From contig NZ_JAAKEC010000020.1 in assembly GCF_011038975.1 (NCBI RefSeq), positions 1-54,764 on the forward strand: a stretch of DNA of 54,764 nt. Direction: 5' to 3'. Below the pieces are notes generated by a model. It searched no databases and was not told the origin of the DNA. It was given only the letters and a program-made list of their open reading frames with translations. The position numbers and the translations under genes were made by a program. Positions 8,653 to 33,469 of this stretch are shown in pieces. The DNA comes from Adlercreutzia sp. ZJ176. GTDB taxonomy: Bacteria > Actinomycetota > Coriobacteriia > Coriobacteriales > Eggerthellaceae. Each line of letters starts with the position of its first letter. The stretch's first letter is position 1.

Positions 8653-8689
8653 TTCCCCGAAAACAACTCCGACAGAAAGGATCACGAAC

Positions 8690-10218: not shown

Positions 10219-10295
10219 CGGGTGATGAGCCTCAAATCTCGCAGACGACATCCGAGGCTCATCACCCGGCGGGGGAGGCCCCGCGCCCCTGATTG
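10219..10295. other. Candidate origin of transfer (oriT)
   Basis: A perfect 15-bp inverted repeat (CGGGTGATGAGCCTC / complement, 10219-10233 and 10254-10268) with a 20-nt loop is followed directly by a G/C-rich segment (GCGGGGGAGGCCCCGCGCCCC). The mobilisation genes start 30 bp further on. Position, dyad and adjacent GC-rich strand are typical of MOBP-type oriT regions. The nic site was not identified. The rest of the 9752-10325 gap has no gene. Confidence 0.55.
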
Positions 10296-10325
10296 AATAC
10301 ATTCAATGGTTAGGAGAGAAATACC

Positions 10326-10745: not shown

Positions 10746-10747
10746 CC

Positions 10748-11980
10748 ATGCCCATCTTGAAAGTCATATCCGGGCATGGTAGCACAGGCGGCATCCGCAA
10801 CTACCTTGAGAAGGGCGGCCGTGCCCTGGGGCGTGATTTTTTGAACCTGCCCTTCGAGGAATGGACGGTCGAGGATCGCGATGGCAAGGCGCTTGACGTT
10901 GAATGGGACGCCGAGATGGACGCGACAAGAAGGGCATACGGAACAGACGAGCCGTGGAGAGGGATGCGAGCTCGAACCTTCAAGCACTTCGTCATATCAC
11001 CCGACCCCGATGACGCCATCGATATACAAAAGCTTCGCGAGCTTTCGCAAGCCTGGGCGAAGAAGCACTTCGGCAACCACGAGATAGCCATCGTCTATCA
11101 TGACGACAACGAGGGCCGCATACCGCATGCGCACATCGTCGTGAACAACGTGGACCTCGTGACGGAGCGCAGGCTTCATACCGACCACCCCGAAGACCTC
11201 AACCGCGACCTGCAGGACATGGCGCGAAAGCGAGGGCTAACAGGTCTCTCGAACGTGATGCCCAAGCGCGGTGAGCGCGATCACGATGAGGCGCATCCGC
11301 GGAGCCGCCAGGCCGTGTACTTCGGCCGAGCCGAGCGAGAGCTTTTGCGCGAGGGCAGCTACTCGTGGGTCGGCGACATCCGCGCACGGGTGGCCCTTGC
11401 CAAGAACACGTCGCGCAGCGAAGTCGACTTCATGGAAGCGCTCGGGCATCTTGGCATCGAGGTCTCCGACAACTCGCGAAGCGCCAGGCGCGACGACTGG
11501 ATATTCGCGTTAGCCGACCAACCGACCAGGCGCGTGTCCGGCGAGAGGCTCGGCTACACCTTCGGAAAGCAGATGCTGAAAAGCCGCTTCGAGCGCCAAG
11601 CGTCGTACCAGCCTGAGCCAAGGACGGGCAGAGAGATAAGGCACAGGGCGATCGAGGCGATCGAGCTCAACGACCTGCAAGACTTAAGCCGCCTCTCGGC
11701 TGTGCTCGAAACGTGCGCTAAGTTCGACGTCCGCTACCTTGAGGACTTCAACCGCAGGCTTGCAACTTTGTCCCGACGTGGACACGAGGGCACCGAGGGG
11801 TTCAGGCGGCTTCAGGAAGCACGAGCTTACGTGACGGACAACGGCCTCATGGCAAGGCGTGACCGTTGCAACCCAGCTGAGCCCGTGGCAACCCGAAGGC
11901 GTGGCAACCAGGGTGACACACAACGCCAACGTGCCCAGGAAGCGCAGCGCATGCGCTACCGGGAGAGGGGCGAGAGATGA
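10748..11980 (+). CDS. mobA: MobP-type relaxase / mobilisation nuclease
   Basis: This 410-residue relaxase would nick oriT and pilot the strand through the type IV system. Visible motifs are Tyr19 in GGIRNYLEK (probable catalytic tyrosine region), HFVISPDP at 80-87, and the metal-binding triad YHDDNEGRIPHAHIVVNN (His118, His127, His129). A basic middle region follows (RSRQAVYFGRAERELLREG). The C-terminus is low-complexity and Arg/Gln-rich, without a primase or helicase domain, and the protein is shorter than large plasmid relaxases. The stop overlaps the next start (ATGA). Confidence 0.88.
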   Translation: MPILKVISGHGSTGGIRNYLEKGGRALGRDFLNLPFEEWTVEDRDGKALDVEWDAEMDATRRAYGTDEPWRGMRARTFKHFVISPDPDDAIDIQKLRELSQAWAKKHFGNHEIAIVYHDDNEGRIPHAHIVVNNVDLVTERRLHTDHPEDLNRDLQDMARKRGLTGLSNVMPKRGERDHDEAHPRSRQAVYFGRAERELLREGSYSWVGDIRARVALAKNTSRSEVDFMEALGHLGIEVSDNSRSARRDDWIFALADQPTRRVSGERLGYTFGKQMLKSRFERQASYQPEPRTGREIRHRAIEAIELNDLQDLSRLSAVLETCAKFDVRYLEDFNRRLATLSRRGHEGTEGFRRLQEARAYVTDNGLMARRDRCNPAEPVATRRRGNQGDTQRQRAQEAQRMRYRERGER

Positions 11981-12546
11981 TCGTGAAGATAACCTATGAC
12001 GACAAGCGCCTCGACGTCTTCGACACGTCCACGTTCACATCGGCGCTTCCCTTGGGAAAGCAGAACATGCTCACCAACTTCGAGGTGCGATTTGACGACA
12101 TGGGATTCGACGGACTTTGGCTCACCGCACACAGCTACCGAGCCGACGAAACCTTTAAGAAGGATGCCGCCGAAAACGACGTTCCCGTTGCTAGACGTAC
12201 CAAAGGCTGGCGCTTCTTGCTGGCATCGGCTACAGAGCTTGAGCATGTCGAGCTTGTCGTGGTTGATGGCGAGGTGATCGTGAAGCGCGTGCTCGGGGAG
12301 CTCATCGACCTTCAGAGCTTCGACGAGAAGACCTACGAGTGCATCGGCTCGTCATCGAAGGGCTTGCATGAGCGGATATGCGAGCTGTATTCATATCTGC
12401 AAAAGCTCACCGACGAAGCTGAGCCCTGCGTCCCTGGAGTGCCGAGGAGCGTCGTGTCGAAGCTCGTGGCGACAAAGCTTGCGAGTGAGGCAGAAGAAGA
12501 CGGCAAGGAAGAGGAATGGGGTGATCTCGATGAGGTTGGTTGGTAG
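11977..12546 (+). CDS. Hypothetical protein coupled to the relaxase gene
   Basis: This 189-residue protein starts inside the relaxase stop (ATGA overlap), so translation is coupled. The first half looks like beta strands (VKITYDDKRLDVFDTS, LWLTAHSY), the second half is helical and ends in an acidic stretch (EAEEDGKEEEWGDLDEVGW). No family is recognised. Because of the coupling it probably serves mobilisation or is an early-expressed accessory factor of the incoming strand. Confidence 0.7.
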   Translation: MIVKITYDDKRLDVFDTSTFTSALPLGKQNMLTNFEVRFDDMGFDGLWLTAHSYRADETFKKDAAENDVPVARRTKGWRFLLASATELEHVELVVVDGEVIVKRVLGELIDLQSFDEKTYECIGSSSKGLHERICELYSYLQKLTDEAEPCVPGVPRSVVSKLVATKLASEAEEDGKEEEWGDLDEVGW

Positions 12547-12601
12547 CTTTGTTCGCTGGCTCATCAAGGCAGTTTTCAGGTTTATGTAGGGAGTGATGGA
12601 T

Positions 12602-13288
12602 ATGAAGGGCGTTTTTGATTCGATGAAGAACAGACAGGTGCAAGGCATCTGTATCAGTGTTGCCGTTGCCGTTGTTGCGATCGTGATCCTCATGGTCGTG
12701 CTTGCAACGTGCTCTGCTGGAACAGCTGCAAGCGATGCCGACGCGGGCAAGGTTGTAGCGGCAAATCCTGTCGCGCAAGAGACCAACGAGACCGGTGATA
12801 TGAGGGTTTCAAGCGCGGATGATAGCGCTTGGGCGGCGGCCTCAGATGTTGACACAAGCAGGGAGCCCGCTTCCGAGAGAGCTGAACCGATCGTAGCCGA
12901 AGCACAGTCTGTTTCTCAGGGCACCTCTGCACAGGCAGAAGATGCAGTTCCGTCGTCAGGTGCGAGTGCTCTGGAAAGTGAGGAGAGCCCCACCCCGCCG
13001 CAGCCTCAGAGGAAATGGGTCGAGGATGCCCAGGAGGTTTGGGTCGAGGACAAGGCAGCCTGGATCGAGCAGGTTCCGGTTTACAGCACCAAGGAGGTTT
13101 CGATCTGCAACGTGTGCGGCGCGGATGTCACTGGTAACACATCGGCACATGGCAAGGCACACATGCTTGCCGGAGAAGGATCCGGGCATCACAGCGAGGT
13201 CAAACAGATCGTCACCGGTTACAGCACCGTGAGCCATGCAGCAGAAGGCCACTGGGAAACCAAGGTGGTCGGCGGACATTGGGAGTAA
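12602..13288 (+). CDS. Membrane-anchored protein with zinc-finger-like C-terminus
   Basis: About 229 residues. A single N-terminal membrane segment (VQGICISVAVAVVAIVILMV) is followed by a Ser/Ala/Glu-rich low-complexity stretch of about 100 residues. The C-terminal domain has WVEDAQEVWVEDKAAW repeats, CNVCGAD and HGKAH (CxxC...HxxxH, a possible zinc site), and ends in VVGGHWE. The domain is probably extracytoplasmic. ATG 12602 is chosen because AGGGAG lies 8 nt upstream; ATG 12596 or GTG 12593 are possible. I recall similar W/C/H-rich tails in Coriobacteriia surface proteins, without known function. A terminator follows at 13368. Confidence 0.68.
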   Translation: MKGVFDSMKNRQVQGICISVAVAVVAIVILMVVLATCSAGTAASDADAGKVVAANPVAQETNETGDMRVSSADDSAWAAASDVDTSREPASERAEPIVAEAQSVSQGTSAQAEDAVPSSGASALESEESPTPPQPQRKWVEDAQEVWVEDKAAWIEQVPVYSTKEVSICNVCGADVTGNTSAHGKAHMLAGEGSGHHSEVKQIVTGYSTVSHAAEGHWETKVVGGHWE

Positions 13289-13634
13289 GACTTGCGCTTT
13301 GCAGTGTCCAGCATTTTGCTCTCTTAGAAAGCACCTAGGCGGAACCGCTTTCGCGACTCCGCCCTACAAAACCTCGAAGGTTTTCTTATCTGTCGTTGCA
13401 TACTTCGAACATGACGCTCCGTGATTTGAGGCGGGCGATCTGCCCGTCTGAGGTCAACTTGGGCTTGAATGGCTAGTAACCCGTTTTGGGACCCAGCAAT
13501 CAGGGGGGTGTGGACGTATTCTTGGGTGTACCTAGGTTGCAACCACCGTATGATACTGTCTGCTTTTGACTCCGACGGCTGCGCTTAAGAATATGATGAG
13601 ACTTGTGCCTGCGCTAAGGGGTAGCAACGCTAAA
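13289..13634. other. Intergenic region between convergent mob and EPS operons
   Basis: 346 bp between convergent transcripts. It contains the terminator at 13368-13384 and a GGCGGA/TCCGCC hairpin just before it. The remainder shows nothing recognisable. No terminator for the - strand operon end is obvious other than the symmetric hairpin. Confidence 0.5.
13368..13384 (+). terminator. Intrinsic terminator after 13288
   Basis: AAAACCT, loop CGA, AGGTTTT. The hairpin is symmetric enough to stop transcripts from both directions. It shares loop and layout with the terminator at 4946-4965. Confidence 0.6.
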
Positions 13635-15038
13635 CTACTGATGCTGTTTGTGCATTTGCTTGATGATTATTAGATAGATTGGCAGCGGCAGGTACAGAGC
13701 AAGTGAAACCGCTATTGCCGCCCATGTTGACAACAATTTGAACGCAATGATGAACGCAACCGAATAGACAACAAGATAGAGTGACAGAATGAGTGGTTCA
13801 CGACTCGAAAAGCACTTTGCTAGATGTCGTTCGGAAACAAAGCAGCGCACAACAACCGCTATAACCGAGCCAGCGATAATCGCCTCCAAGGAATGCAACA
13901 TCATTCCACATATACTACCCACTATCGCAATTAGAAGAGAAGCAATATTAATCGACAAGAGAGTTGCTTCTTCACGACGAACCTTAAATAGCGTCGAGCA
14001 GCATATCTCCATCTTGCTGTCAAAGATGCACGTTGGTAGTAACAGAACCAAATAAACCAGACTTTCATAGTACTGCGGCAGCCATAACTCTATGAATGTC
14101 ATTAGGGGGAAAATACAAATCAGGATTACTGGCATAATCACCGACAACGCTCTTTCCCCACTAACGAAGAATACCCTAACAGCTTCTTCGTTGGTCTTAC
14201 GTAAAAAGGGAAAGAAAACCATTGCTGCCTGTATGATAAATGCATTGAAAAAGGCTACGAGAGAAATCGCAAAGGAGTACTGTCCGAAGACATACTGAGG
14301 CCAGAACCACTCAATGAAAAAACGGCCCAAGCCGACAACGAGCATGGAAATTTGCATTGACATCATAAGCTTGAAACCAGCGGCGATACTATTCTTGATA
14401 GCCGGGATTATTCTTTTCAACGATAGCAGCCCCGAAAACAAGATGTCCCTCGCATGAAACACCGAATACGCGCAGGCAACGGCCTCAGCTATTACGTAAG
14501 CAGCTATATACATGAAGTAGTCTTGGCAGTTGCAGAGAACTAGAGAACCGAGCAACAAGAGAAATGAAGCACGTAGGAGTAAGAGTGCTTTCGAAGAAAG
14601 ACGGACCTCATCAATTGCTTGAAACAAAACCCTTAGTGAACCATCGATGTTAAACAGAATTAAATAAGCGCCCAGTAAAATGAACACCAGCCGCCTACCG
14701 CCGCTGAATAGCAACAGCGATCCCAATATGATTATTCCGCCAACAATGGCTTGGAAGAAATACATGTAGACCAGCTGCGATCCGATACTCCGCTTGTTTA
14801 TCTGACTTCTGCTTAGTCCACCGTTTATTAAGTATATTCCATCATGTAAGCCCAAAGTTGAAAACGAAACGTATGAAGCGTAAAGGATAAACAGTTGCCA
14901 AAAGGCAAACTCCTCGACTCCGAGCATCTTCGGAACAATCAAAGACATAACGACGCTTGTTAGCATCGACACAATCTGAACCACATAAGCAAATAAAATA
15001 TTATGTTTTACAGAATTACCCCGAGAATCTTTACCCAT
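13635..15038 (-). CDS. Wzx-type polysaccharide flippase
   Basis: This is a 467-residue polytopic membrane protein with about 12 hydrophobic segments, opening with the flippase signature region ([39 protein letters not shown]). It belongs to the MATE/Wzx-like polysaccharide transporter superfamily and would move lipid-linked repeat units across the membrane. It is the last gene of the operon and overlaps the preceding acyltransferase gene by 8 bp (AATGGGTAA). Base composition is clearly AT-richer than the conjugation genes, a sign of separate origin. Confidence 0.85.
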
Positions 15039-15639
15039 TCAAGGATTCCCTGATCAAAAGCGCTTTTTCCTCGTCGATGTCCTCATAGAGAAGCTTAAGG
15101 TTCTTTTTTGCGTAGTCGCGCGTCAATGCTGAAAAATCCACTTCGGATAAGATCTTTATTATTTTTTCGTCGAACCTATATCTCACTAGCTTTGCCGGCA
15201 CCCCGGCGACAATAGCATAGGGAGGGACATCCTTTGTCACCACCGCTCCGGCACAAACAATCGCACCCCTTCCGATATTTACATTAGACAAGATGATTGC
15301 GTCCGTGGCAAGCCAAACGTCGTCACCAACGACGATGCCGCCCTTGCAGGACTGCTTGCCGGGTAAACTCAGTAGTTTTGTCTTGAACGGAAAAGTTGAG
15401 AAGTGAGAAGTAGGATGATCATTGTTGACGATGAATTTTACTCCATGGGCTATAGAGCAGTAGTCTCCTATCAAGACTCCATAGTCATCACCAAACGAAC
15501 TTACATATATTGGGCCATAAGTTCCCTTGCCAACAGTAACAAGATCATGAGGAAATCTATTTTCCTGCCATGTTCCGTTGTGCTGGTTTTTCAGTCTCCA
15601 CTGGATTCGTCTAATCCGTAGTTTAATTGAATCAAGCAT
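15031..15639 (-). CDS. Hexapeptide-repeat O-acyltransferase (CatB/VatD-like)
   Basis: About 202 residues. The left-handed beta-helix pattern is clear: [21 protein letters not shown], then [53 protein letters not shown] (each cut to 20). The NDHP segment supplies the catalytic His typical of xenobiotic/sugar acetyltransferases. It probably acetylates a sugar of the exported polymer. The frame is open up to 15891, but ATG 15639 is preferred: it overlaps the stop of the preceding gene by 8 bp and gives the usual family length. Confidence 0.8.
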
Positions 15640-16714
15640 TTCCACAATAGCCCCACTCTGCAATATTGTCGACGTAAGATTCATAGTATGTTTTGGGGTA
15701 CTCCGATTTAGCATCAGGTCTCTGATGTGGCGAATCCGCCATGGGCAATTCGCAACTCCCATCGACAGATGAGGGGTAAGAGAACCTTTCCAGCCAAGAT
15801 TCAAAACTGTAGTAATCGAGAAGCTCGTCATGTGGTTCCACGTAGGGCGTTTTAATAAAATCAAAGAGTCCGTCTGGGAAACGTTCGTCAATTATGTAGA
15901 CGTTATTGTGATTGTAAAGATTCAGACACCGAACAGAGCGATTGTCGGTAATGAGTTTCTTCCCAAAGAATAGGGCTTCCAGAGTTCGGATCGTCACACC
16001 CTCTTGGTTAGGTTTGGTAATCTCTACGAGTATATCTGACTCTTCGACCTTCAATATGTTCTCGCTGTAGGGAATAGAATCGGAGTAACAGAAATCACTA
16101 CTAGTTACCTCGCTTGATGTCTCATCTTTGACAACATAAAACCTTGTTTCCACCCCAGCTGCAATCAGCGCATTCTCAACTGCCATGATTTTGGCTAGTC
16201 GTCCCTTTTCTAGGCCCATAAAGTAAGCAGAGATCCCCTCCCTGCTCTTGCGAATGCTAGACGACTTGGCCATTGTGCTAAACATACGAGAGTAGAAAGA
16301 TGGGTTGAAATGCATGTTATATTCTCTACATTCACGGGGATCAAACGACCAAAGCTCGCATTCTTTCCTATCAATACCCCATGGATTGGCCGCCTTTTTG
16401 TCGCCTTCTACAGTGTTCCAGTAGTAATAGCAAATTCGACCCGAATAGCCGAGTCTTCTCAGAACTTTATGCAGACACGAAGCCGTCCTTGAGGAATCCA
16501 TAACTATAATTAACGAATAATCCGAAAGCGATTCAACCCAAGACTCCAGAAAGAAACAGGGCATAAACCCAATCCGAGAAAATGCCATCCGTACCGCTTG
16601 CGCAATCTTAGACACCCTTCTGAATATATTGAACATATCGACACTCGGTGGAAGGCATGCCTTGTATCCCGAAAGCATACTTTCGTTATCGAAAGTGATC
16701 ACTAAAGTCTTCAT
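15632..16714 (-). CDS. Glycosyltransferase-like protein
   Basis: This 360-residue protein has the C-terminal hallmark of a group of poorly described capsule/LPS glycosyltransferases: [20 protein letters not shown] followed by [20 protein letters not shown]. The same block ([32 protein letters not shown]) occurs in the product of 22863-23888, so the two are distant paralogues. The N-terminal half is a Rossmann-like segment ([17 protein letters not shown]). It probably adds one sugar of the repeat unit; donor unknown. Start overlaps the preceding gene by 4 bp (ATGA). AT-rich composition like its neighbours. Confidence 0.65.
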
Positions 16715-17802
16715 GAGAATACCTCGTTAAATGTGTTGTTAAGCATTACCGGCACAAATGAAAGATCGAAGTTGTGCACAGTTGCCGCAAGAGTGAAAGC
16801 TAGCAGGAGCCATAAGGCTGTCATACCAATATTTCCAATTCTGGCTTGCATAATCGGAACACTTTCACGTAACCACTTGTCAACTATTGCGGCAAGAACG
16901 GGAAAAGCAACCCAGATAATTCTGAACGATTCAGAAACATTGCATAAGGAAATTGCACACAAGGGGAGGAAGCACAAACCGATGTTAGATACCACTCTCC
17001 CATAAGCAAAATCGCCCCTTTCTCTAAGGCTTCGTCCTGCATGGTCGAGCAGCCACGCTTGCGAGAGAATGCACATAATAAATACCACGCAGCCTAAGCC
17101 CAGATGTAAAGCAAAATAGTAATCGACCCTGTATTCCCCAATTAACATCGCAAGTACAGTCTTTGCCAAACCGGTAACCAGAAGGAATGCAAGAACTGCT
17201 GTCAGAACCGTGAAAAGCAGCTTGCAAGATTTGACACTTAGATACTTTGCGGGTAGCAGCAGAAGAAAAACATAACAAACAAAATGTATCGACCCTGCTA
17301 TGACGATTAACATGCCGAACCAGATAATGGATTTGCTAGTTGCTTTCTCTGAAAAGGCAAACGAAATAGCAAGGGATGCAACTGAGCCCGCCAAAAAAGT
17401 ACGAAAGAGGGTCGTGCCAAGCCACAGCGACATAAGCAGAAAGCAGGCAAAGGGGAACGGTCTCATTTCCCCACCGCTCATTCTCTTGATCGATACTACA
17501 TATAGCGTGAGCGCGGATGCATTTAACACCGTCCTGAAAACTTCGAACGGAATACCTCCTCTCGATGCAAAAAGCTCCATTGCGTCGAATAGCCAATCCC
17601 TACTAAATGGCTGATATAGGATTTCGATATACCAACCGCGATACAGCACTAGATCATTGTTGTCTGTGTTCAGGAGTAAAACCACGGATGCGACAAACAC
17701 CAAGAGGCAAACAACAAACCTTGAGCGCCTTACAGTCAGCCCCGCCAAACACGCCGCCGCCCAAAGCCATACAAGCGGGATTTCCCACACTAGCGCCACC
17801 AC
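16711..17802 (-). CDS. EpsG/Wzy-like polysaccharide polymerase
   Basis: This 363-residue membrane protein has about ten hydrophobic segments and a short loop motif NTDNNDLVLYRGWYIEI near residue 45-60, where EpsG-family proteins carry their D/Y-rich first loop. A typical TLFRTFLAGSVASLAISFAF helix block follows. In this operon it is the only candidate repeat-unit polymerase. The start is GTG 17802, preceded by AAGGA about 11 nt upstream. It overlaps the next gene by 4 bp. Confidence 0.75.
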   Translation of the reverse strand: MVALVWEIPLVWLWAAACLAGLTVRRSRFVVCLLVFVASVVLLLNTDNNDLVLYRGWYIEILYQPFSRDWLFDAMELFASRGGIPFEVFRTVLNASALTLYVVSIKRMSGGEMRPFPFACFLLMSLWLGTTLFRTFLAGSVASLAISFAFSEKATSKSIIWFGMLIVIAGSIHFVCYVFLLLLPAKYLSVKSCKLLFTVLTAVLAFLLVTGLAKTVLAMLIGEYRVDYYFALHLGLGCVVFIMCILSQAWLLDHAGRSLRERGDFAYGRVVSNIGLCFLPLCAISLCNVSESFRIIWVAFPVLAAIVDKWLRESVPIMQARIGNIGMTALWLLLAFTLAATVHNFDLSFVPVMLNNTFNEVFS

Positions 17803-17845
17803 GCTAACTAGATCCTTTCAGAAATCGTTGTTCCATTACATCGTC

Positions 17846-18394
17846 TTAATGCGTTCTAGAGACATTGATGCGGAAATTACCCTGCTGCTGCTTCTTTCTC
17901 GCCCACTCGATTGTGCTGCCTACAATCTGCTGAGGATTCCCGATAACGATTGAATTGGACGGAATATCTCCTCGAACGACGGATCCAGCTCCGATGATAC
18001 AATTGTCACCTATGGTACATCCGGGCATCAAAATTGACCCAAGACCCACAAAGCAGTTGTTACCCACGACGATATCTCGCAGAAAGTACGCTTCAAGAGT
18101 CATATCCTCCCCAATCGCTTCTAGCGCACGTGCTATCGAGTAATCATGGGTGAGAAATTCGACATTTTTTGAAATGACAGTCTTATCGCCAATATGAATG
18201 ATGGAGTAATCCTTGCCGTCAAAGTGCACCGATGGCGCAATAAACTGAGGCATCCCTTTAATGTCCATGCCTTGTCTCTTAAGGTAATTCACGTATCGAT
18301 CAAGGTACCAAGGCATGTTGAAATGCCCTACAACTTTCAGGAAACCGACGTACAGCTTTCCTGGAATTCTCCCGATGTTAGTGATGTTCTTCAC
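17846..18394 (-). CDS. Hexapeptide-repeat acyltransferase (WcaF/maltose acetyltransferase-like)
   Basis: The 182-residue protein shows hexapeptide repeats in the second half: IIHIGDKTVISKNVEFLTHD, IVVGNNCFVGLGSILMPGCT, IGDNCIIGAGSVVRGDIPSN, SIVIGNPQQIVG. The FLTHDYS segment supplies the His of the active site. It likely acetylates a polymer sugar. The start lies 17 bp inside the end of the GT4 gene. Two acetyltransferases in one operon imply at least two acyl decorations or two different sugar targets. Confidence 0.8.
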   Translation of the reverse strand: MKNITNIGRIPGKLYVGFLKVVGHFNMPWYLDRYVNYLKRQGMDIKGMPQFIAPSVHFDGKDYSIIHIGDKTVISKNVEFLTHDYSIARALEAIGEDMTLEAYFLRDIVVGNNCFVGLGSILMPGCTIGDNCIIGAGSVVRGDIPSNSIVIGNPQQIVGSTIEWARKKQQQGNFRINVSRTH

Positions 18395-19559
18395 GATTCT
18401 CTCTCTTCCTTCTCATGATCGATTCGCATACCGCTGTAACATCACCTACGCCCACGATTTCCGCTTCTGGTCCTACTGCTTCCGAAGTACCACCGGCATC
18501 GTAGGCAATGATCTGGGCTCCACAGGCCCGTGCCTCCAGCGCGACCGTGGGATAATTTTCCTCATAGCTGAGTATGCAGAACAAGTCGGCATCGGAATAC
18601 AGTTCGGCGAGCTCTCGTTGATCGGCCGTGCGCTCGATCCCGATTACCCCCTCTGGAAGCCCCTCTAGTTGCTTTTTATTCAATCCCACAAGCACGATAG
18701 CCACGTCTGATCCTATGATTCTCGAAACCTCGAGGAAATCGCCAAAGCCCTTTCTCTCCGTCCACGGATTAGCCACACCAAGGACCATAAAGCGATTGCC
18801 AATGCCAAGTCGCTTCCTCCAATTGCTTTGCACGGGCCTAAAAACCGTCTCATCGATATGATTAGGTATAATCTCGATTGGATAATCGTCGAAAAATGAC
18901 TCGGAGATGATTTCGGCGAGCCATTTGCTAGGAGAGACCAACGTTAGACGGCTCGCTGGTATGCTTGTAAATATTCTCTTTTTATCAGCATAGTTCTGAA
19001 CGCAGTTGCCTTGGAACAACGTCTTTGGGTATGCGTTGAGCTGTGGACACTTCTCGGAATATGCGCAGTGAGACTGCCACTGTGCGCAATTTGCATATAT
19101 GAAATTTGCGCAGTGCCCCGTAAACGCCCAGCAATCGTGTTGAGTCCAAATCACACGACATCTATGCGAGGCTAACCAGCCGAATAGCATTTCAATGTTA
19201 ATCCAATAGCCATGAAGAATGTGCAGATGAACGATATCAGGATCTATCGCGTCAAGTCTTTTAAGGAGACGTCGTGTAGGCATACGGGAATGAAAACCAG
19301 CGCGGTCGTCAATCCTAGTCAGCACAGCATCGAGGTAGGTATTCAGGGGATTGCATATCCTCTGCATGAACTCGTCCTGCTCGTGTGCGCCGCGACCCCA
19401 GAATACCCAAGAATCATTACCTTTAGATCTGAGTTCGCAGTGTTTGGAAAAAACGACCGATTCTGCCCATCCAGTTGACCGTGCAGTCAACTGTACATAT
19501 TTCACGCTAGATAACTCCCCAGAATCGATAAGCCGGTTTCCTTGCGATAGATTCCTCAT
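18378..19559 (-). CDS. Family 4 glycosyltransferase
   Basis: About 393 residues, GT-B fold. The C-terminal half has the GT4 pattern: PIEIIPNHIDETVFRP, FMVLGVANPWTERKGFGDFL, ELAELYSDADLFCILSYEEN, YPTVALEARACGAQIIAYDA. The EEN-x-P-x-x-x-x-E segment is the donor-binding EX7E-like motif. The N-terminal part includes HLHILHGYW and WTQHDCWAFTGHC, as in putative colanic acid-type transferases. ATG 19559 overlaps the SDR stop (ATGA) and is preferred over ATG 19571. It adds a sugar to the lipid-linked unit at the cytoplasmic face. Confidence 0.85.
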   Translation of the reverse strand: MRNLSQGNRLIDSGELSSVKYVQLTARSTGWAESVVFSKHCELRSKGNDSWVFWGRGAHEQDEFMQRICNPLNTYLDAVLTRIDDRAGFHSRMPTRRLLKRLDAIDPDIVHLHILHGYWINIEMLFGWLASHRCRVIWTQHDCWAFTGHCANFIYANCAQWQSHCAYSEKCPQLNAYPKTLFQGNCVQNYADKKRIFTSIPASRLTLVSPSKWLAEIISESFFDDYPIEIIPNHIDETVFRPVQSNWRKRLGIGNRFMVLGVANPWTERKGFGDFLEVSRIIGSDVAIVLVGLNKKQLEGLPEGVIGIERTADQRELAELYSDADLFCILSYEENYPTVALEARACGAQIIAYDAGGTSEAVGPEAEIVGVGDVTAVCESIMRRKRENREEHH

Positions 19560-20353
19560 CGATGCCCCCATACGGCAGGAGAGTCGTAAGGGCGGTCGGG
19601 AAACGCTCCGTATTCTAAATTGATACTGAGTTCGTTCTCGACGATGAAGCGTTCAACTCGGTCAGCAAGTTTCTCTGGCTTTCCAGAACAGATATTGTAG
19701 ATGCCACTGCCATCTGCTCCTGCTACGATATCAGACACCTGCATGCAGAATTCTCCATAGTCGAGAAAGTCATACTGGTTCTGGCCCATAGTAAAGGGGA
19801 ATGTCCGCTTCCCCTCAGCAGCAGCCTGACATATCTTGGAAAATATGGAGGAACCATATTGAGTATTGTCCACGATGTAGTATCCGCGCAGCCATAGCAA
19901 CTCAGTACCAGATTCTGTCGCGAGAAGATTCGCCACTTGTCGTAGAGCATTCTTTGCTATGCCGTACATACTCTGCGGCATGCAGGGCGTCTCGGCACGT
20001 ATACCTCCCTCGAAGTAGCCCACTTCGTGCATGGTGCCCATCACGGCTAAACGGGACAACGACGAGACGGTTAGTTTTCTGATGAACTTCACATGAGCCG
20101 GAAGGTCCTCCATATGAGCCGAAGAGTTATGGCTAAACCCATCTCGCCATGCGAGGTGCAGCACGCAATCAGGACTGCTCATCTCTGTATACGGATCCTC
20201 CATCTCAAACGCGCTACGCTCAATTGTCCTTGTCGCTCCTTCGACACGATCACAACGCATATCAACTGCCACAACCTCGTGGCCGCGTGATGCGAGCTCT
20301 GCAACTATTCCTCTACCGAGAAATCCATTTGCCCCTGTGACGGCCACCTTCAT
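19556..20353 (-). CDS. NAD-dependent epimerase/dehydratase (SDR family)
   Basis: This 265-residue extended SDR has the nucleotide-binding motif TGANGFLGRG at residues 6-15 and the catalytic YGIAK (YxxxK). The layout resembles UDP/dTDP-sugar epimerases and reductases. It follows rfbC directly (ATGA overlap), where an rfbD reductase would normally sit, but it is not RfbD-like in sequence. It may reduce or epimerise the 4-keto intermediate made by RfbB or RfbB/RfbC, giving a sugar other than L-rhamnose (for example a fucose- or talose-type sugar). Exact product unknown. Confidence 0.75.
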   Translation of the reverse strand: MKVAVTGANGFLGRGIVAELASRGHEVVAVDMRCDRVEGATRTIERSAFEMEDPYTEMSSPDCVLHLAWRDGFSHNSSAHMEDLPAHVKFIRKLTVSSLSRLAVMGTMHEVGYFEGGIRAETPCMPQSMYGIAKNALRQVANLLATESGTELLWLRGYYIVDNTQYGSSIFSKICQAAAEGKRTFPFTMGQNQYDFLDYGEFCMQVSDIVAGADGSGIYNICSGKPEKLADRVERFIVENELSINLEYGAFPDRPYDSPAVWGHR

Positions 20354-20949
20354 TTCATGCCTCCAAACCTCTCGCGAAATAACGGGTGTCTCTTATCCTT
20401 CTCCGAGAGAATCAGATCCGTACCACCTATTGACGCATCCGAAGGAATCGGCCAGTCTATTCCGATGTCGGGGTCATTCCACATGAGGCCGCCCTCGTCG
20501 TCAGGGTGGTACACGTCATCGCACTTATAGGCGAATATGGCGTGCTCGCTCAACACAAGAAAGCCATGCGCGAAGCCCTTCGGGATGAATAGTTGTCGGC
20601 GGTTTTCTCCCGAGAGTACAGCGCCCTCCCAGCACCCAAAAGTGAGACTATCGGGCCGCAGATCCACAGCAACATCGAAGACCTCACCAAAGAGCACGCG
20701 CACAAGCTTGCTCTGAGGATACTTGATCTGAAAATGCAACCCGCGCAGTACCCCACGTGTACTCGCGCTTTGATTATCCTGGACAAATTCCGCATCGATA
20801 CCGCCTGCTGCAAAGTCAGGCCGTTTGTAGGTCTCAAAGAAAAGGCCTCGTTCGTCGCCGTAAGTCCTTATGTCCACAAGAATAACGCCCTCGATGGAAG
20901 TCTGAGTAAATGTAAAGTTGCCGGATGTGGTTTTGTCGCCCTTTGCCAT
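20350..20949 (-). CDS. rfbC: dTDP-4-dehydrorhamnose 3,5-epimerase
   Basis: The 199-residue product is RmlC-like: IRTYGDERGLFFETYKRPDF, QDNQSASTRGVLRGLHFQ with the catalytic His, AVDLRPDSLTFGCWEG, IPKGFAHGFLVLSEHAIFAY, then DPDIGIDWP. It epimerises C3 and C5 of dTDP-4-keto-6-deoxyglucose. The frame is open to 21093, inside rfbB, but ATG 20949 is preceded by GGGGAG and gives the normal length. It lies 10 bp after the rfbB stop. Confidence 0.92.
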   Translation of the reverse strand: MAKGDKTTSGNFTFTQTSIEGVILVDIRTYGDERGLFFETYKRPDFAAGGIDAEFVQDNQSASTRGVLRGLHFQIKYPQSKLVRVLFGEVFDVAVDLRPDSLTFGCWEGAVLSGENRRQLFIPKGFAHGFLVLSEHAIFAYKCDDVYHPDDEGGLMWNDPDIGIDWPIPSDASIGGTDLILSEKDKRHPLFRERFGGMK

Positions 20950-20959
20950 AAAGCTCCCC

Positions 20960-22862
<1,903 letters not shown>

Positions 22863-22866
<4 letters not shown>

Positions 22867-23888
22867 GAGGCAACGCCCCCTTTCTTGTATCCAGAGTAGG
22901 TAGGTCCCTCACCGAGCAGCGTGGCGGCGAAGGAGGTGATCGAATAGCTTTTATAGACATCAGGCGGAAGTTCTTGGTAATCCTTTGAAAAGAAATCTCT
23001 TGTGATGCTGCCTGGTCTGTCCCAAACGGCAACGTCACCATAGCGCGAGAAGTCGTATTGAAGCACTTCTGGGTTGGTAGTTATGAGCTTGCGACGCGCT
23101 CCGACAGCCTCTAATGTTCTGATGGTGAGTCCCCGCTGACCCGCTTGAGGTGAATCGATAATCGCCCTCGATCGTGCATAAACTTCTGCAACTTTTTCGG
23201 CAGACAAGGGAGAATGTTCGAGGCGTGCCCCCCGATATGCAGAATAAGTCATCTTTCTCAACAGCTCAGCGGACCTGGAAGGTATGAAGAAGTACTTAAA
23301 CACACACAGCTCTTGTGCCTCCAGCTCTTCGCATATCTTGCAGATAGCCTCGAACTTGCTCGCTTGGTGGACGCTGCCTATAAAGCACGCATCGTAGGTA
23401 AAGCCGCCTTCGGGTACCAGCGGCAGACGCGCGTAGTCATCGAGGTAGAAGAGGGGTCGAAGCCTAAGCCTGAACCTATCGCAGTCATCCGGCTCAAACG
23501 AGTAGACCTCATCGAAAAGATCGAGGCACTCCCCGAAACGCTGACAATTCCCAAGTGCGTCCCAAAGTCCCGCCACATATTTCGTCCTCGGCGCGGCGGA
23601 TCTGATTCGAGAAAACTGCCTGCGGGAAAAACAGAACGACATGCCGCTAAGATAGACTAAGCGATCGTACTCCCCTACGGAGAGCTTTGTCTCCAGGTCA
23701 CGTGCATGCTTTGTCACCAACGGCTCTACAAGCCTATAGCTTACCCGACCTGCCGATTTGAAGGCAATTGATTCGCTTGGCCTGTCGACGAAACAGTCCA
23801 CAACATTACCCTCTTTTATCAACGCCTGTGCGATCTTGTCCCGATAGCCGAAGAAGGAGGGCCCAAGCAGCAGAATCTTAGACACCAC
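22863..23888 (-). CDS. Glycosyltransferase-like capsule/LPS protein
   Basis: About 341 residues. It starts with [20 protein letters not shown], a Rossmann-like N-terminus, and ends with the block [37 protein letters not shown] recognise this block from widespread lipopolysaccharide/capsule biosynthesis proteins of GT-B type with unproven substrate. It is a distant paralogue of 15632-16714. The frame opens at TTG 23921; GTG 23888 or 23885 fits better with the start of the conserved part. A 148-bp gap without a convincing gene separates it from the sugar transferase upstream. Confidence 0.68.
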
Positions 23889-24036
23889 TACGCCCCGTCT
23901 TTCTCTTGCCGAACATCGCAACCGAACTCAACGCGCTGGCACTCGTTGTTCTCGAAGGTGACGTCGTTGCACGGCCTCGTTTGCCATGCAACGGGGACAC
24001 CCTTGGAACTTATAATGAATACGTTATGCACTGCAA

Positions 24037-24765
24037 TCAGCTCCCCTGTGCGGTAAGCATGCAACCCACGGTCTGGACGATCAGCTTGAAGTCCGTCCAT
24101 ACGGAGCACTTCTTGATGTAGAGCAGGTCGAGGTCGACCCACTCGTCGAAGGTTATGGAGTCGCGATCGCGCCTGGTCTGCCAAAAGCAGGTGATACCCT
24201 GCTTGCAGAGCAGCCGTTCGCGCTGACGTGGCGTGTAGGAGACGACCTCGGAGGGCAGCGCCGGGCGCGGGCCCACCACCGAAAGGTCACCCTTCAGCAC
24301 GTTTACGAACTGCGGCAGTTCGTCGAGCGACAGCTTGCGCAGCCACTTGCCCACGCGCGTGACGCGGGGGTCGTTCGCCATCTTGAACACGGGGCCTGTC
24401 TTCTCGTTGAGCTTCTTGAGTTCGGTCAGGCGCTCCTCTGCGTCGGCGCACATGCTGCGGAATTTATACATGGTGAACTCACGGCCATCCTTTCCAACAC
24501 GGACTTGCCTGAAAACGATGGGGCCCGAGGGGTCGTCGAGCTTGACGGCGACGGCGACAATGAGGAACAACCAGCTGAAGAGCACGAGGATGCACAAACT
24601 GAAAACGACGTCGAAGGCACGCTTGACAGCGCGGTAGCCGAAGCGCCTCGAGCGCAGCTGCCCTACAGCCTCGGCCAGCGCGGGGTCGTCTACAATGTCA
24701 ACCGGATCTCCCGTTGCCTCAGCGCAGATGACGTCCGCCATGTCTTCGACCAGATCGTACGACAA
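24037..24765 (-). CDS. Undecaprenyl-phosphate sugar-phosphate transferase (initiating enzyme)
   Basis: This 242-residue bacterial sugar transferase (PF02397 type, WbaP/CpsE C-terminal domain) has one membrane segment at about residues 51-75. Conserved blocks follow: PSGPIVFRQVRVGKDGREF, MYKFRSMCADAE, LRKLSLDELPQFVNVLKGDL, SVVGPRPALPSEV and TCFWQTRRDRD. It loads the first sugar phosphate on undecaprenyl phosphate. The likely start is TTG 24765 with AAGGA 7 nt upstream; ATG 24741 is the alternative. It is the first structural gene after the two NusG-like genes. Confidence 0.92.
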   Translation of the reverse strand: MSYDLVEDMADVICAEATGDPVDIVDDPALAEAVGQLRSRRFGYRAVKRAFDVVFSLCILVLFSWLFLIVAVAVKLDDPSGPIVFRQVRVGKDGREFTMYKFRSMCADAEERLTELKKLNEKTGPVFKMANDPRVTRVGKWLRKLSLDELPQFVNVLKGDLSVVGPRPALPSEVVSYTPRQRERLLCKQGITCFWQTRRDRDSITFDEWVDLDLLYIKKCSVWTDFKLIVQTVGCMLTAQGS

Positions 24766-24831: not shown

Positions 24832-25365
24832 CTATGTCGTCGCCGCGCCTACAGAGTTCCGCTTGCAGGTGACGCGCAGGCCCACTTGGGCGTCCACCTC
24901 TTGCCCGGCCACGGTCATGCGCACGTAGGCGCGCTTGCCTCGGTGTCTTACGCGACGGATCAGGCCCTCGCGGCCACATAGCGGCCCGCTTACCACCTCG
25001 ATCTGGCCACCCGTGCCGACGTGCCCCTCCGAGAAACCGACGGTGCGGCGTCCTGGGCGCGTGAGTTCACCTAGAAGCGCGACCTCACCCGGCTCCATTT
25101 CTGCGGCGCCGGGGCCATCCAACAGCAGTTCGTCGATGCCGCGTGCGTGACGCAGGGCCGCGCGAACCTCACGCTTGCTAGGTGCCACGGCCACAAGCAG
25201 GCCCGCCGCCAAAGGCTCTTCCAGCGGAACTGACTCACCGCGCGGCGAGGCCATCTGTGCTCGAGGTACGAACAATTCCTCAAGACCATCGAGAAGCGCC
25301 TGCTCCTGCAAAAGGGCCAATGCTCGCTCCTCGCAACCCGGCTTCACGTTGATTGCAAACCACAT
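24832..25365 (-). CDS. NusG/LoaP-family antiterminator, second copy
   Basis: The 177-residue product opens with MWFAINVKPGCEERALALL, the NusG N-terminal (NGN) pattern. It ends with a KOW-like segment (VVSGPLCGREGLIRRVRHRG). The FVPRAQM stretch corresponds to the loop contacting RNA polymerase. It would ride on the polymerase through the long polysaccharide operon and prevent early termination. ATG 25365 is chosen at the start of the NGN domain. It follows the first copy by 8 bp. Length and domain order fit specialised NusG paralogues (LoaP, UpxY, RfaH), not housekeeping NusG. Confidence 0.82.
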   Translation of the reverse strand: MWFAINVKPGCEERALALLQEQALLDGLEELFVPRAQMASPRGESVPLEEPLAAGLLVAVAPSKREVRAALRHARGIDELLLDGPGAAEMEPGEVALLGELTRPGRRTVGFSEGHVGTGGQIEVVSGPLCGREGLIRRVRHRGKRAYVRMTVAGQEVDAQVGLRVTCKRNSVGAATT

Positions 25366-25373
25366 GGCTACCC

Positions 25374-25949
25374 CTAGCTTTTGAAGGGGACGATCATGGG
25401 CACGCACTCGGCGAACCCTCCGTCCACATCTACGAAGCAGAAACGCTTGTGGCGATCAACCTTGACTACGCGGCTCTCCTGGCCCATAAGCGGGCCCGAG
25501 CACACGCGCAGTACACTGTCCTCAATGACGGCAGTGCTCGTGCGTATGACGTGCCCTGTGTCAAGAACGCCCTCGTACCACTCCTGTGCGGCAGCGGAAA
25601 GCGGCGCGAAGTGACGGGTGGCGTCGGCCTTCGCTATGCGCGCGGGAAAGGAGAGCTTGCTAAGCTCCTTATCGAGCGTGAGCACGTCCTTCGTCACGAC
25701 GAAGAAGTACTCGTGGTACATAGGCACCGGGTAGAGGCTCCACGTACCGTGGTACTTGCGCCAGCGCTCCTTGCGCATCACGAAGGCATCCTCCAGTAGG
25801 TCAGGAGGCATGAGCTTGCGCACCTTGTCGCAAGTGGCCTGCTCGCGCCCAGGGGCATGGACCACATACCAGCGCCTGGTGCCGCGAGGCGTGCGTCTGC
25901 CGACAGGCATGCCCCCGAAGGCTAGTACCCCTGCAGGTTGTTTGGCCAT
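25374..25949 (-). CDS. NusG/LoaP-family antiterminator, first copy
   Basis: The 191-residue protein has an N-terminal extension of about 25 residues, then RRWYVVHAPGREQATCDKVR (NGN start) and YPVPMYHEYFFVVTKD (conserved aromatic patch). The C-terminal KOW-like VCSGPLMGQESRVVKVDRHK follows. It is the first gene downstream of the candidate invertible promoter. ATG 25949 has AGGGGG upstream; GTG 25955 is an alternative. Two different NusG-like proteins in tandem suggest that they act on different signals or as a heteromeric pair, or that one inhibits competing operons as UpxZ does in Bacteroides (no UpxZ likeness seen). Confidence 0.85.
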   Translation of the reverse strand: MAKQPAGVLAFGGMPVGRRTPRGTRRWYVVHAPGREQATCDKVRKLMPPDLLEDAFVMRKERWRKYHGTWSLYPVPMYHEYFFVVTKDVLTLDKELSKLSFPARIAKADATRHFAPLSAAAQEWYEGVLDTGHVIRTSTAVIEDSVLRVCSGPLMGQESRVVKVDRHKRFCFVDVDGGFAECVPMIVPFKS

Positions 25950-26040
25950 ATCCACCCCCTTGCCTACTTTTAGTCAAAACAAGGCGTGACCGCGGCCCTT
26001 TTATGAGCGACGATCTGCGCCCCTTACCGGTGAGGGTGTT

Positions 26041-26058
26041 GGAAAAGTACACTTAAAA
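26041..26058. repeat. Left inverted site of the promoter switch
   Basis: GGAAAAGT-AC-ACTTAAAA. The inner AAGT/ACTT is a perfect dyad around the AC centre. It shares ten consecutive bases (AAAAGTACAC) with the complement of the right site. Confidence 0.6.
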
Positions 26059-26130
26059 ACCAAGGGGCCTTTTGGGGCGAAAAATGGCATGAAAATAATG
26101 CGAGCAGGGTAAACATTCTTAAGAAACGTG

Positions 26131-26136
26131 TATAAT
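26131..26136 (+). promoter_or_regulatory. -10 box inside the switch, pointing away from the EPS operon
   Basis: TATAAT preceded by a TG. The -35 is weak: TAAACA at 26110-26115 with 15-bp spacing. The intervening TTCTTAAGAA palindrome may bind a regulator. On the - strand only a weaker TTAAGA/CATTAT pair (16-bp spacing) faces the operon. The assembled orientation is therefore probably OFF or low. Confidence 0.5.
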
Positions 26137-26156
26137 TCCGGACATTACAGGTGAGT

Positions 26157-26174
26157 GAAAAGGTGTACTTTTTC
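26157..26174. repeat. Right inverted site of the promoter switch
   Basis: GAAAAGGT-GT-ACTTTTTC, a nearly perfect dyad around GT. Its complement matches the left site over 13 of 15 core bases and its centre is inverted relative to it. Confidence 0.6.
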
Positions 26175-26196
26175 AGACGTTGAAAACGTGGTCTGA
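26173..26196 (+). terminator. Possible terminator just outside the switch
   Basis: TCAGAC...GTCTGA with an inner GTT/AAC stem forms a bulged hairpin, followed by a T-rich stretch up to 26236. It would stop transcripts leaving the switch in the present orientation, before they run antisense into the recombinase gene. An alternative is a recombination-enhancer or accessory site. Confidence 0.3.
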
Positions 26197-26255
26197 ACAG
26201 GTCTTATTCAGTTGTTTCTAAGGATTTGTTTTTCAGCGGCGGTTGTCACATGCCG

Positions 26256-26873
26256 CTAGCCAGCGGCCTTGTCCTTGCGCTCTTCGCGCAACCACTTGTC
26301 AAACGTGCTCAGGCTCACCTTCAGTCTCCCAGCCGCCTCAGCGCGCGTGATATGCCCCTCCAAATACGCCTGCCTTGTCGCCTTATAGCTCGTAGGCTTC
26401 TTCTTGCTCGGACGTCCGAACCGCACGCCGCGCGCCTTCGCCGAAGCAATTCCTTCGGCTTGGCGCTGGCGAATGTTTTCGCGCTCCATCTGCGCGACGT
26501 AGCTCAAAAGTTGCAGCACGATGTCGGCGATGAACACGCCGGTGACGTTTTCCTTGGACTCCCGGGTGTCAAGCAGGGGCATGTCAAGCACCACGATCGC
26601 ACATCCCATGTGCTTTGTGATGTTTCTCCACTCATCGATGATCTCGTCGTAGTTGCGCCCTAGCCGGTCGATGCTTTTGACGACCATCACATCACCCGGC
26701 TTCATCACGTCCATGAGCCGCTTGTACTCAGGCCGCTCGAAGTCCTTGCCGCTTGCCTTGTCTGCGAACACGTTTGACTTATCAATCGGGAAGGCTAGAA
26801 GGGCGTCGAGCTGCCTGTCCAGGTTTTGGTCTTTGGAGGATACGCGGGCGTACCCGTAGGTTGCGTTTGACAT
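26256..26873 (-). CDS. Serine recombinase (resolvase/invertase family)
   Basis: This 205-residue small serine recombinase opens with YGYARVSSKDQNLDRQLDAL; Ser12 in RVS is the expected nucleophile. SGKDFERPEYKRLMDVMKPG, SIDRLGRNYDEI and ENIRQRQAEGIASAKARG complete the catalytic core and E helix. A C-terminal helix-turn-helix follows (ITRAEAAGRLKVSLSTFDKW). The size and domain order suit Hin/Gin-like invertases and Tn3-type resolvases alike. ATG 26873 with AAGGAGG 5 nt upstream is preferred to the in-frame ATG 26897. Its location 80 bp from the inverted sites makes promoter inversion the likely job. Resolution of cointegrates or dimers is the alternative. Confidence 0.88.
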   Translation of the reverse strand: MSNATYGYARVSSKDQNLDRQLDALLAFPIDKSNVFADKASGKDFERPEYKRLMDVMKPGDVMVVKSIDRLGRNYDEIIDEWRNITKHMGCAIVVLDMPLLDTRESKENVTGVFIADIVLQLLSYVAQMERENIRQRQAEGIASAKARGVRFGRPSKKKPTSYKATRQAYLEGHITRAEAAGRLKVSLSTFDKWLREERKDKAAG

Positions 26874-26981
26874 GGATGCCTCCTTCATATGTCGCATCGC
26901 AATCGCAGAAAGCGATACTCAGCACCGCTTGGGGCGCATGTGGCGCTTGCGCGCCTCGTGCGGCGCTGTCGTATCTCTTAA

Positions 26982-27743
26982 TTAAGCAGGTTGAGATGTG
27001 GATGCGTACACGACGGTGCGATAATTTCCCGTCTGATCGCTGCAGGTCGCAAAGGCCCAGACCACCTCGTTTGCGATCACGCTCCCGTCGAGCGCCAGGT
27101 CGCTTCGGGCTACGGCGCCTTCGACGTATGCGACGCGCTCCTCATCTGTGGCGAAGCTCGTGTGTAGCATCTCTTGGCGTGCGTCAACCACGTCAACTGC
27201 CCTGACCTTGAGCTCATAGCACCCGCCATTCGAGCGCGTGTGAACGTAGATGACCTCGTGCTGCCGCGCGTAGTCGCGATCGCTGAACTTTGCAAAGTCA
27301 GCAAAGACCGTGCCGTCGCTTAAGTTGTGGCCGTAGACCATGACGAATGGGGAGTGCGCCGTGCACTCCCAGTCGATATACGGAGTGCCGTATGCACCTT
27401 GTGCCAGCGCGTCCTCGTAGAGGTATCTGTTCGGGTAGTCCGGTGTCGCCTGCGCTATGGGCTCATCGATGGTTGTCCCAGGCACCTCCACCCATGTGAC
27501 GATTGACTCAGGAAGCGCGTCCCAGTCGATTGGGCAAGACATCTCGCCCTCAGATCCGGTTTCCGTCTCTGTAACAGGCGTCTTTGCGGGTGCGAGGGAA
27601 ACATCAGGCGGGATTGTCTGCCAGAGCGCGAAGGCAAGCAGGCATACAACCGCGATGATCAGAAAAAGGCGCGCTACGATGCCGCGGAGGCGGGCAAAAC
27701 ACCCGCCTCCACACTTAGAGCCGTGTGTGCGCCTACTTCTCAT
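26982..27743 (-). CDS. srtB: Class B sortase
   Basis: This 253-residue transpeptidase has one N-terminal membrane helix (residues about 22-41) and an extracellular catalytic domain. The catalytic triad is visible: His139 in VMVYGHNLSDG, Cys234 in FATCSDQ, Arg242 in NYRTVVY. VTWVEVPGTTIDEPIAQ and YLYEDALAQGAYGTPYIDW are class B blocks. The start lies 11 bp inside the end of the surface-protein gene, so they are coupled. It should attach that protein (YPKTG signal) to the cell wall or polymerise it. Confidence 0.9.
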   Translation of the reverse strand: MRSRRTHGSKCGGGCFARLRGIVARLFLIIAVVCLLAFALWQTIPPDVSLAPAKTPVTETETGSEGEMSCPIDWDALPESIVTWVEVPGTTIDEPIAQATPDYPNRYLYEDALAQGAYGTPYIDWECTAHSPFVMVYGHNLSDGTVFADFAKFSDRDYARQHEVIYVHTRSNGGCYELKVRAVDVVDARQEMLHTSFATDEERVAYVEGAVARSDLALDGSVIANEVVWAFATCSDQTGNYRTVVYASTSQPA

Positions 27744-33464: not shown

Positions 33465-33469
33465 GCCGA

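Follow-up and report, generated by a model that had tools for sequence, protein, structure and literature searches.

The window analysed here, the 54,764 nucleotides that make up contig NZ_JAAKEC010000020.1 of Adlercreutzia sp. ZJ176 (the entire contig C12 of a 2.7-Mb genome), very probably contains a complete 45-kb integrative and conjugative element (ICE) in a tRNA-Gly(CCC) gene, whose cargo slot holds a self-contained, phase-variable polysaccharide cassette with an invertible promoter and an Mpi-like serine invertase (Table 1). The basis for this is sequence: the gene content, the ends of the ICE, swapped operons, a site motif, matched core dinucleotides and opposite orientations in homologous loci of other genomes. 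From these we infer which protein flips the segment, promoter activity, antitermination, conjugation and the polymer. In the proposed mechanism, the serine recombinase would flip a segment of 98 bp bounded by two 18-bp sites. When the segment lies one way, the promoter within it would read into two tandem genes, loaP1 and loaP2, whose NusG-like products would keep RNA polymerase going through a long operon, and the operon would make, flip and polymerise a repeat unit containing a dTDP-6-deoxysugar; with the segment the other way round, as is predicted for this assembly, the operon would be off. Recombination would swap operon bodies behind a conserved head, and the ICE would carry head and body to other Eggerthellaceae.

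The sequence upstream of loaP1 contains inverted copies of an 18-bp near-palindrome. Its pattern, CAAAAnGTAsACnTTTTG, consists of two half-sites around a non-palindromic dinucleotide (AS), an arrangement from which the sites of small serine recombinases are built. The two arms were not among the 25 longest of 44 inverted pairs from a repeat search and were found by a separate script. A LoaP1 profile, for which six loci of this genome (five with the site motif) were used, matched at E<=1e-18 in 39 of 137 genomes of the family, and a LoaP1 search of IMG/VR revealed no relative. Examination of 46 LoaP1 places (the 38 best and 8 lower ones) showed the arm motif upstream of 24 of the 25 best loci and of 0 of the 21 lower-scoring ones, against a background of 37 single sites in 843 kb. 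At the scan threshold both arms were detected in 19 of the 24 loci and one arm in the other five, among them the window and both copies in Adlercreutzia sp. ZJ141; the second arm of these five was placed by a looser pattern allowing either dinucleotide. With the one of the 25 best loci that has no sites (G000:C3) left out, the central dinucleotide was the same in both arms of all 24 loci (AC in 10, AG in 14), and the arms were inverted relative to each other in every case. Strict pair patterns detected 12 places in the 137 genomes (10 AG and 2 AC), of which 10 lie upstream of counted LoaP1 loci, 2 beside a related recombinase and none elsewhere; reversed strict patterns, used as a control on the same genomes, gave 0 matches. 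Among the LoaP1 loci, the strict patterns pick up just 8 of the 14 with an AG core and 2 of the 10 with an AC core. Matched-core inverted repeats around a promoter-sized segment, by which an inverton is recognised, are present in the window.

Alignment of the segments between the arms, with the flanks as control, revealed homologous loci in which the segment is turned round. Both flanks are conserved where the segments of G000:C44 and G000:C23 are inverted relative to G001:C37 (z 26 and 19), and the same holds for G000:C1 against G001:C67 (z 24), which lacks LoaP and lies beside a related recombinase. Inverted segments were also found in G065, G067 and G022 relative to G068 (segment z 12-22, flank z 4-12) and, with weaker flanks, in G000:C17 relative to G001:C52 (only the upstream flank conserved) and in G088:C67 relative to G038:C176. 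G001:C67 itself has its 97-bp segment in both orientations; the two copies are exact reverse complements over a length of 114 bp that takes in parts of the arms, and a 97-bp direct repeat of flank and arm accompanies them. We read this as the assembly of a mixed population. Both species of the genus have an invertible segment beside a second recombinase, not upstream of LoaP (L223 4682-4815, L224 8256-8582).

Promoters within the segments were called as consensus matches, not as activity. For all 14 AG loci and one of the AC loci, a TASACT in one arm is followed, after 17 nt, by a hexamer that matches TATAAT at 3-5 positions, against at most 2 for the other arm. Eight of the nine other AC loci, the window included, have a perfect TATAAT 19-20 nt inside the distal arm and directed away from LoaP1; in the ninth (G096) a TATAAT lies 20 nt inside the proximal arm and is directed toward LoaP1. 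By these matches 5 of the 24 loci are predicted to be ON and the window copy to be OFF.

The proposed invertase is nearest to Sin among proteins in the PDB, followed by gamma-delta resolvase, with DNA invertases further down. A relative of it lies upstream of the inverton at 11 of the 24 loci, within ~1.2 kb at ten of them (including the window) and at 2.65 kb in one. Relatives at E<=1e-50 were found in 30 of the 137 genomes, namely in 12 of the 13 genomes with the 24 LoaP1 loci vs 18 of the 124 others (Fisher p 2e-8; the 137 genomes of the LoaP1 and of the recombinase count are taken as the same set). A scan of 30 recombinase loci revealed an inverted site pair in 11, four of which (G107, G025, G075 and G001:C67) have no LoaP1 nearby, and 0 site pairs in 1.22 Mb of control stretches that partly overlap one another.

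Several observations weigh against a cassette switched by its own invertase. The line between the 25 best LoaP1 loci and the others (193 vs 191 bits) was drawn after the result had been seen, and the 24 loci come from 13 genomes, in which related genomes and loci are not independent samples. The G000:C3 locus (L020 9635-10162) has LoaP1 without any site; perhaps it is a default, always-available polysaccharide. Opposite orientations are known from the comparison of assembled genomes, not from within one culture, the window locus and its two ZJ141 relatives are all in the same orientation (3 of 3 copies), and the arrangement of G001:C67 is possibly a real inverted duplication or an assembly effect. 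The best NCBIfam match of the recombinase is the Mpi family (NF009949) with 55.5 bits against a cut-off of 272, XisF being nearly equal with 55.0, and both LoaP-like proteins are below the cut-off of LoaP NF033641 (74.0 and 68.6 vs 125 bits). A related recombinase is missing from the upstream stretch examined at 13 of the 24 loci, at some through contig ends, and such LoaP1 loci are lacking in 18 of the genomes that have the recombinase. By the scan used, 19 of the 30 recombinase loci have no site pair (the imperfect pairs of the window and of ZJ141 are below its threshold, and 17 others have none), and the closest relative of the recombinase outside the ICE (G135, 77%) shows no site within the 14 kb examined.

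The 13 loci without an adjacent recombinase and the 19 recombinase loci without a site pair would be expected if the segment were inverted by another recombinase in trans and the neighbouring gene were a passenger or served another task. A second relative in this genome at G000:C1 points the same way, as do inversions in Eggerthella lenta for which the available part of a preprint describes no nearby recombinase (PMC13174815). We regard this as unlikely, because the gene is adjacent at 11 of the 24 loci, window included, because recombinase and LoaP1 loci co-occur across genomes, and because site pairs adjoin relatives of this very gene in four loci without LoaP1. The repeats might also be relics of inversions that happened in the past, the switch no longer working in this element. 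The window arms (GGAAAAGTACACTTAAAA) are less perfect than others and the three known copies share one orientation, which would fit, but the recombinase has been kept, since it is 99-100% identical in the ZJ141 copies, and the three copies do not differ in their arm cores; this makes relics quite improbable. Very improbable is an ordinary ICE cargo with a fixed-promoter polysaccharide operon, paired operators or RNA hairpins as repeats and the element's resolvase as recombinase: the sites are near-palindromic, as operators often are, and the recombinase resembles Sin and gamma-delta resolvases, but operators leave unexplained the segment turned round between conserved flanks, the matched non-palindromic dinucleotide and the site pairs beside recombinase genes without LoaP1.

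The preferred reading, a promoter segment flipped by the invertase encoded next to it, could extend beyond this element. We tentatively consider it possible that the Eggerthellaceae have their own family-wide capsule-switching system, evolved in parallel to that of Bacteroides, with a clade of serine invertases, 18-bp sites with mutually incompatible AG and AC cores, and each site pair bearing the promoter of a tandem-LoaP operon, and that the ICE spreads expression site and invertase. If it does, an arriving element could therefore set resident loci with the same core flipping in trans. G000:C2 has an AC core and no related invertase gene in the stretch examined. The phages, immune factors and neighbours that a gut bacterium encounters depend on its surface polymers. 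If the reading is true, Eggerthellaceae switch capsules by short promoter inversions as Bacteroides does, with other proteins; switch and changeable capsule genes are passed on by conjugation, and the bacteria may trade and switch surfaces. The analysis yields a defined motif, a candidate for the recombinase and a predicted ON or OFF state for each locus.

A preliminary description of this DNA had regarded the polysaccharide genes as mosaic cargo of a conjugative element and had proposed a comparison of the same backbone in other genomes. When the window proteins were mapped by tblastn onto nine regions from related elements, the same ICE backbone was seen; seven of the regions surround a VirB4 gene that is whole or almost so, and the other two come from contigs that break off within VirB4. 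Both edges of the slot are visible in five of them (one at a contig start), and in all five the interval from the relaxase module to the sortase and adhesin genes (26982-31866), which form the edge of the slot, holds other genes. In these distant relatives the cargo is unrelated: the slot of G080 contains a tet(W/O)-like EF-G-type protein (named by eye; Pfam domains) and surface proteins, that of G007 ArsP and GAPDH genes (by eye), and that of G011, with less than 2 kb, a regulator-like gene (by eye); partial slots contain a helicase and a DNA methylase in G055 and small genes in G049 (by eye). ZJ141, by comparison, has another polysaccharide operon. Its contig C7 (G137:C7) is identical to the window by 97.5% over 1-8675, 92% over 9042-13284 and 89% over 24858-29259, and between the homologies on the 13284 and 24858 sides it carries a different operon with an initiating transferase, a WecG/TagA-type transferase, a GT2 glycosyltransferase, a pyruvyl transferase, Polysacc_synt, a UDP-GlcNAc 2-epimerase and a Wzy_C match under its cut-off. 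Because C7 stops within the adhesin gene, the transfer genes of this element lie on other contigs. In a second ZJ141 contig (G137:C14) the head is 91% identical to the window down to the end of the initiating transferase (24037), where a third operon follows (UDP-sugar dehydrogenase, EpsG and Polysacc_synt); its relaxase side is a mosaic.

Since C7 and C14 keep the head and differ in the operon, the comparison indicates that the slot is an exchange site in which operon bodies are swapped behind a conserved head, and the homology breakpoints at 24037 and 24858 support the mosaic nature of the locus. The DNA of the distal operon (13400-20350) matched only itself at full length in the 137 genomes, with the best two candidates scored per genome, and the next-best match was 727 bp at 66%; among these candidates the exopolysaccharide locus was not encountered at the same place in strains lacking the conjugation genes. 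That conjugation hands over a new polymer, as had been proposed, is plausible. In addition, a two-gene cargo pair (~224 and 495 aa) recurs in slots of related ICEs (L092 5295-7453, for example), twice in G057 (including C3) and once in G007. The one pair scanned had no Pfam match; the pair is perhaps a defence system.

Both ends of the ICE were placed by comparison. Window base 1 aligns 35 bp to the right of the attachment (att) core at 10514 of G137:C7 (~5514 in stretch L241). There the 5' part of a tRNA-Gly, recognised by eye, gives way to sequence matching the window from base 1, and ARAGORN detected no intact tRNA at this junction. The right end was derived from four elements in which int is followed by a complete tRNA-Gly(CCC), then by a similar stretch of ~183 bp and then by the 3' part of a tRNA-Gly, with different sequence beyond it in each of the four hosts. 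Because of these end structures, with the 5' part on the left, the 3' part on the right and an intact tRNA inside, the alignments indicate that the host tRNA-Gly(CCC) is split by the ICE in its anticodon arm and that a complete copy is brought next to the integrase. The window after 45380 is host chromosome. A plasmid origin of the contig, suggested by ParA and ParB, was ruled out since both ends match an integrated element. The element is an ICE because integrase, helix-turn-helix (HTH) genes, coupling protein, VirB4-like ATPase, TrbL, cell-wall hydrolase and relaxase occur together; it has an integrase with att sites in a tRNA gene as well as a relaxase, a coupling protein and type IV secretion genes. 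Three related elements likewise carry a complete tRNA-Gly(CCC) beside the integrase.

The 12-gene polysaccharide operon runs from 24765 to 13635 on the minus strand. Its place between the relaxase module and the transfer genes agrees with the preliminary description, which had drawn the extent of the cargo too narrowly: the LoaP pair, the inverted repeats and the recombinase (24832-26897) also belong to it. Pfam and NCBIfam confirmed the initiating transferase, three glycosyltransferase-like genes (two WaaS/CpsH, one GT4), two acetyltransferases and the polymerase (EpsG family) listed there, all on the minus strand, and the operon has the initiating transferase, glycosyltransferases and polymerase of a Wzx/Wzy operon. 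For the nucleotide-sugar enzymes and the flippase the agreement was partial. RmlA, RmlB and RmlC score over their cut-offs; the fourth sugar gene encodes a short-chain dehydrogenase/reductase (SDR) epimerase and not a clear RmlD, and a deoxysugar of rhamnose type is therefore probable, not certain. The flippase candidate has no Pfam match, even at E<=1, and is ~32% identical to open reading frames (ORFs) in two related loci (L162/L167) matching PF01943 Polysacc_synt, one of them scoring just under its cut-off. Since Pfam is silent and the support comes solely via the matches of relatives, it is a likely flippase, not a proven one. As had been described, no Wzz/Wzc-type length regulator was detected by Pfam among the 50 window ORFs scanned, to which the search was confined; such regulators are common, not universal, in Wzx/Wzy loci. 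The distal part is indeed AT-richer than the proximal genes, with a GC content of 0.51-0.54 at 20-24 kb, 0.43-0.45 at 14-17 kb and ~0.60 in the transfer genes.

Table 1. Features of the ICE and its polysaccharide cassette (window coordinates)
Feature	Position	Strand	Basis or remark
Whole ICE	1-45380	.	left att core ~35 bp left of window base 1
ParA, ParB, HTH_36 protein	127-3134	+	Pfam
Relaxase module	10326-13288	+	Pfam; synteny in relatives
NikA-like	10326-10745	+	relaxase module, Pfam
Relaxase PF03432	10748-11980	+	Pfam
Two conserved ORFs, relaxase module	11977-12546 and 12593-13288	+	synteny in relatives
Probable flippase (Wzx)	13635-15038	-	likeness to ORFs of related loci L162/L167
Hexapeptide acetyltransferase (start codon uncertain)	15031-15891	-	Pfam, NCBIfam
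WaaS/CpsH-family glycosyltransferase	15632-16714	-	NF053598 over cut-off
EpsG-family polymerase	16711-17802	-	PF14897
Hexapeptide acetyltransferase	17846-18394	-	Pfam
GT4-type glycosyltransferase	18378-19571	-	Pfam
NAD-dependent SDR epimerase/dehydratase, not clear RmlD	19556-20353	-	Pfam, NCBIfam
rmlC	20350-21093	-	over NCBIfam cut-off
rmlB	20960-21973	-	over NCBIfam cut-off
rmlA	21970-22866	-	over NCBIfam cut-off
WaaS/CpsH-family glycosyltransferase	22863-23921	-	NF053598 over cut-off
Initiating phosphoglycosyltransferase, short	24037-24765	-	PF02397
LoaP2, second NusG/LoaP-like protein	24832-25407	-	NF033641 68.6 bits, cut-off 125
LoaP1, first NusG/LoaP-like protein	25374-25955	-	NF033641 74.0 bits, cut-off 125
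Proximal arm, putative inverton, central dinucleotide AC	26041-26058	-	
98-bp segment predicted to invert	26059-26156	.	
TATAAT	26131-26136	+	20 nt inside distal arm, pointing away from LoaP1: predicted OFF
Distal arm, putative inverton, central dinucleotide AC	26157-26174	-	
Small serine recombinase, proposed invertase	26256-26897	-	PF00239
Sortase B-like	26982-27743	-	Pfam, NCBIfam; conserved in relatives
Thioester/SpaA/TQ adhesin	27733-31866	-	Pfam, NCBIfam; conserved in relatives
Transfer genes: TrbL, NlpC/P60 hydrolase, VirB4-like ATPase, CD1115-family coupling protein	32460-42675	-	
HTH_17-like ORF (excisionase-like, below Pfam cut-off) and tyrosine integrase	43352-45002	+	Pfam
Complete tRNA-Gly(CCC) carried by ICE	45075-45148	+	ARAGORN; same place in three other elements
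attR = 3' part of host tRNA-Gly	45332-45380	+	49-bp direct repeat; flank differs in each of four hosts

Polysaccharide genes are known as cargo of conjugative plasmids and of ICEs, and the element resembles these in its mobile surface-polymer genes; unlike them, it has a proposed switch and an exchange slot. Bacteroides capsule loci have invertible promoters, UpxY antiterminators (and UpxZ) and the Mpi invertase. The sections available of a study of Bacteroidales describe ICEs on which upxY and genes for glycans or resistance are combined with an invertible promoter and an invertase (PMC8748976). With these and with the Bacteroides capsule loci the cassette shares a polysaccharide operon and, by our reading, an invertible promoter, a NusG-type antiterminator as first gene and an invertase; like the Bacteroidales loci it is carried by an ICE, and the region that follows the putative promoter is highly variable. 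In contrast to the Bacteroides loci, it belongs to another phylum and has two tandem LoaP-like genes in place of UpxY and a serine recombinase with its own 18-bp sites and low similarity to Mpi. For both LoaP-like proteins LoaP (NF033641) is the best-scoring NCBIfam family, and like LoaP they are encoded by the first genes of a long operon; they differ in scoring below its curated cut-off and in forming a tandem pair.

A second system to compare is that of E. lenta, which we take to belong to the same family as the source of the window. As far as the available part of the 2026 preprint goes (PMC13174815), capsule clusters with LoaP undergo megabase inversions there; these take place at a 16-bp repeat, GATAAGCGCGGTTATG, next to which no recombinase was found, and the authors contrast them with short promoter inversions. 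Capsule clusters, LoaP and, by the reading proposed here, a reversible inversion (accompanied there by changed expression) are common to both systems, whereas the inverted DNA measures megabases there and a predicted 98 bp here. Because the 16-bp repeat is present in none of the loci compared, no link to the E. lenta inversions is claimed. An inverton survey gives a median of 14 invertons per genome in Actinobacteriota; Eggerthella, Adlercreutzia, Gordonibacter and Collinsella are not mentioned in the available portion of its main text, and the sites described here may be in its tables (PMC11892184). ICE-borne invertible glycan loci are already known in Bacteroidales from the sections cited above; for the actinobacterial switch, that is, short invertible promoters of Eggerthellaceae polysaccharide loci, there was no report among the matches listed from the open-licence literature.

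The two loaP genes overlap in tandem upstream of the polysaccharide operon, and their products scored 25.3 (LoaP1) and 22.8 bits (LoaP2) against UpxY NF033644, whose cut-off of 100 was not reached. A total of 13 LoaP/NusG-like matches was found in this genome, several in tandem pairs and one recognised by eye as the housekeeping NusG. Contigs G000:C23 and C44 start with an identical 127 bp (L023/L024, bases 1-127) at the 3' end of two different loaP1 genes, which is an assembly branch; both heads may run into a single downstream locus, shared or repeated. The inverted repeats AAGAGGATGAATA that precede other LoaP genes, first taken as a second inverton family, were not counted because they look like a leader RNA stem with a T-rich run. 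Another class of LoaP, in other genomes of the family (L160-L168, L170), has no inverton motif; its leaders resemble one another, with a long stem, AAGAGGATGAATAG ... CTATTCATCCTCTT, ahead of T-rich sequence (by eye), and are a candidate for a LoaP-linked leader RNA. Finally, the adhesin with its own sortase is kept in the ICE backbone of the relatives with ~71-75% identity over most of its length, perhaps as a mating or host-attachment structure.

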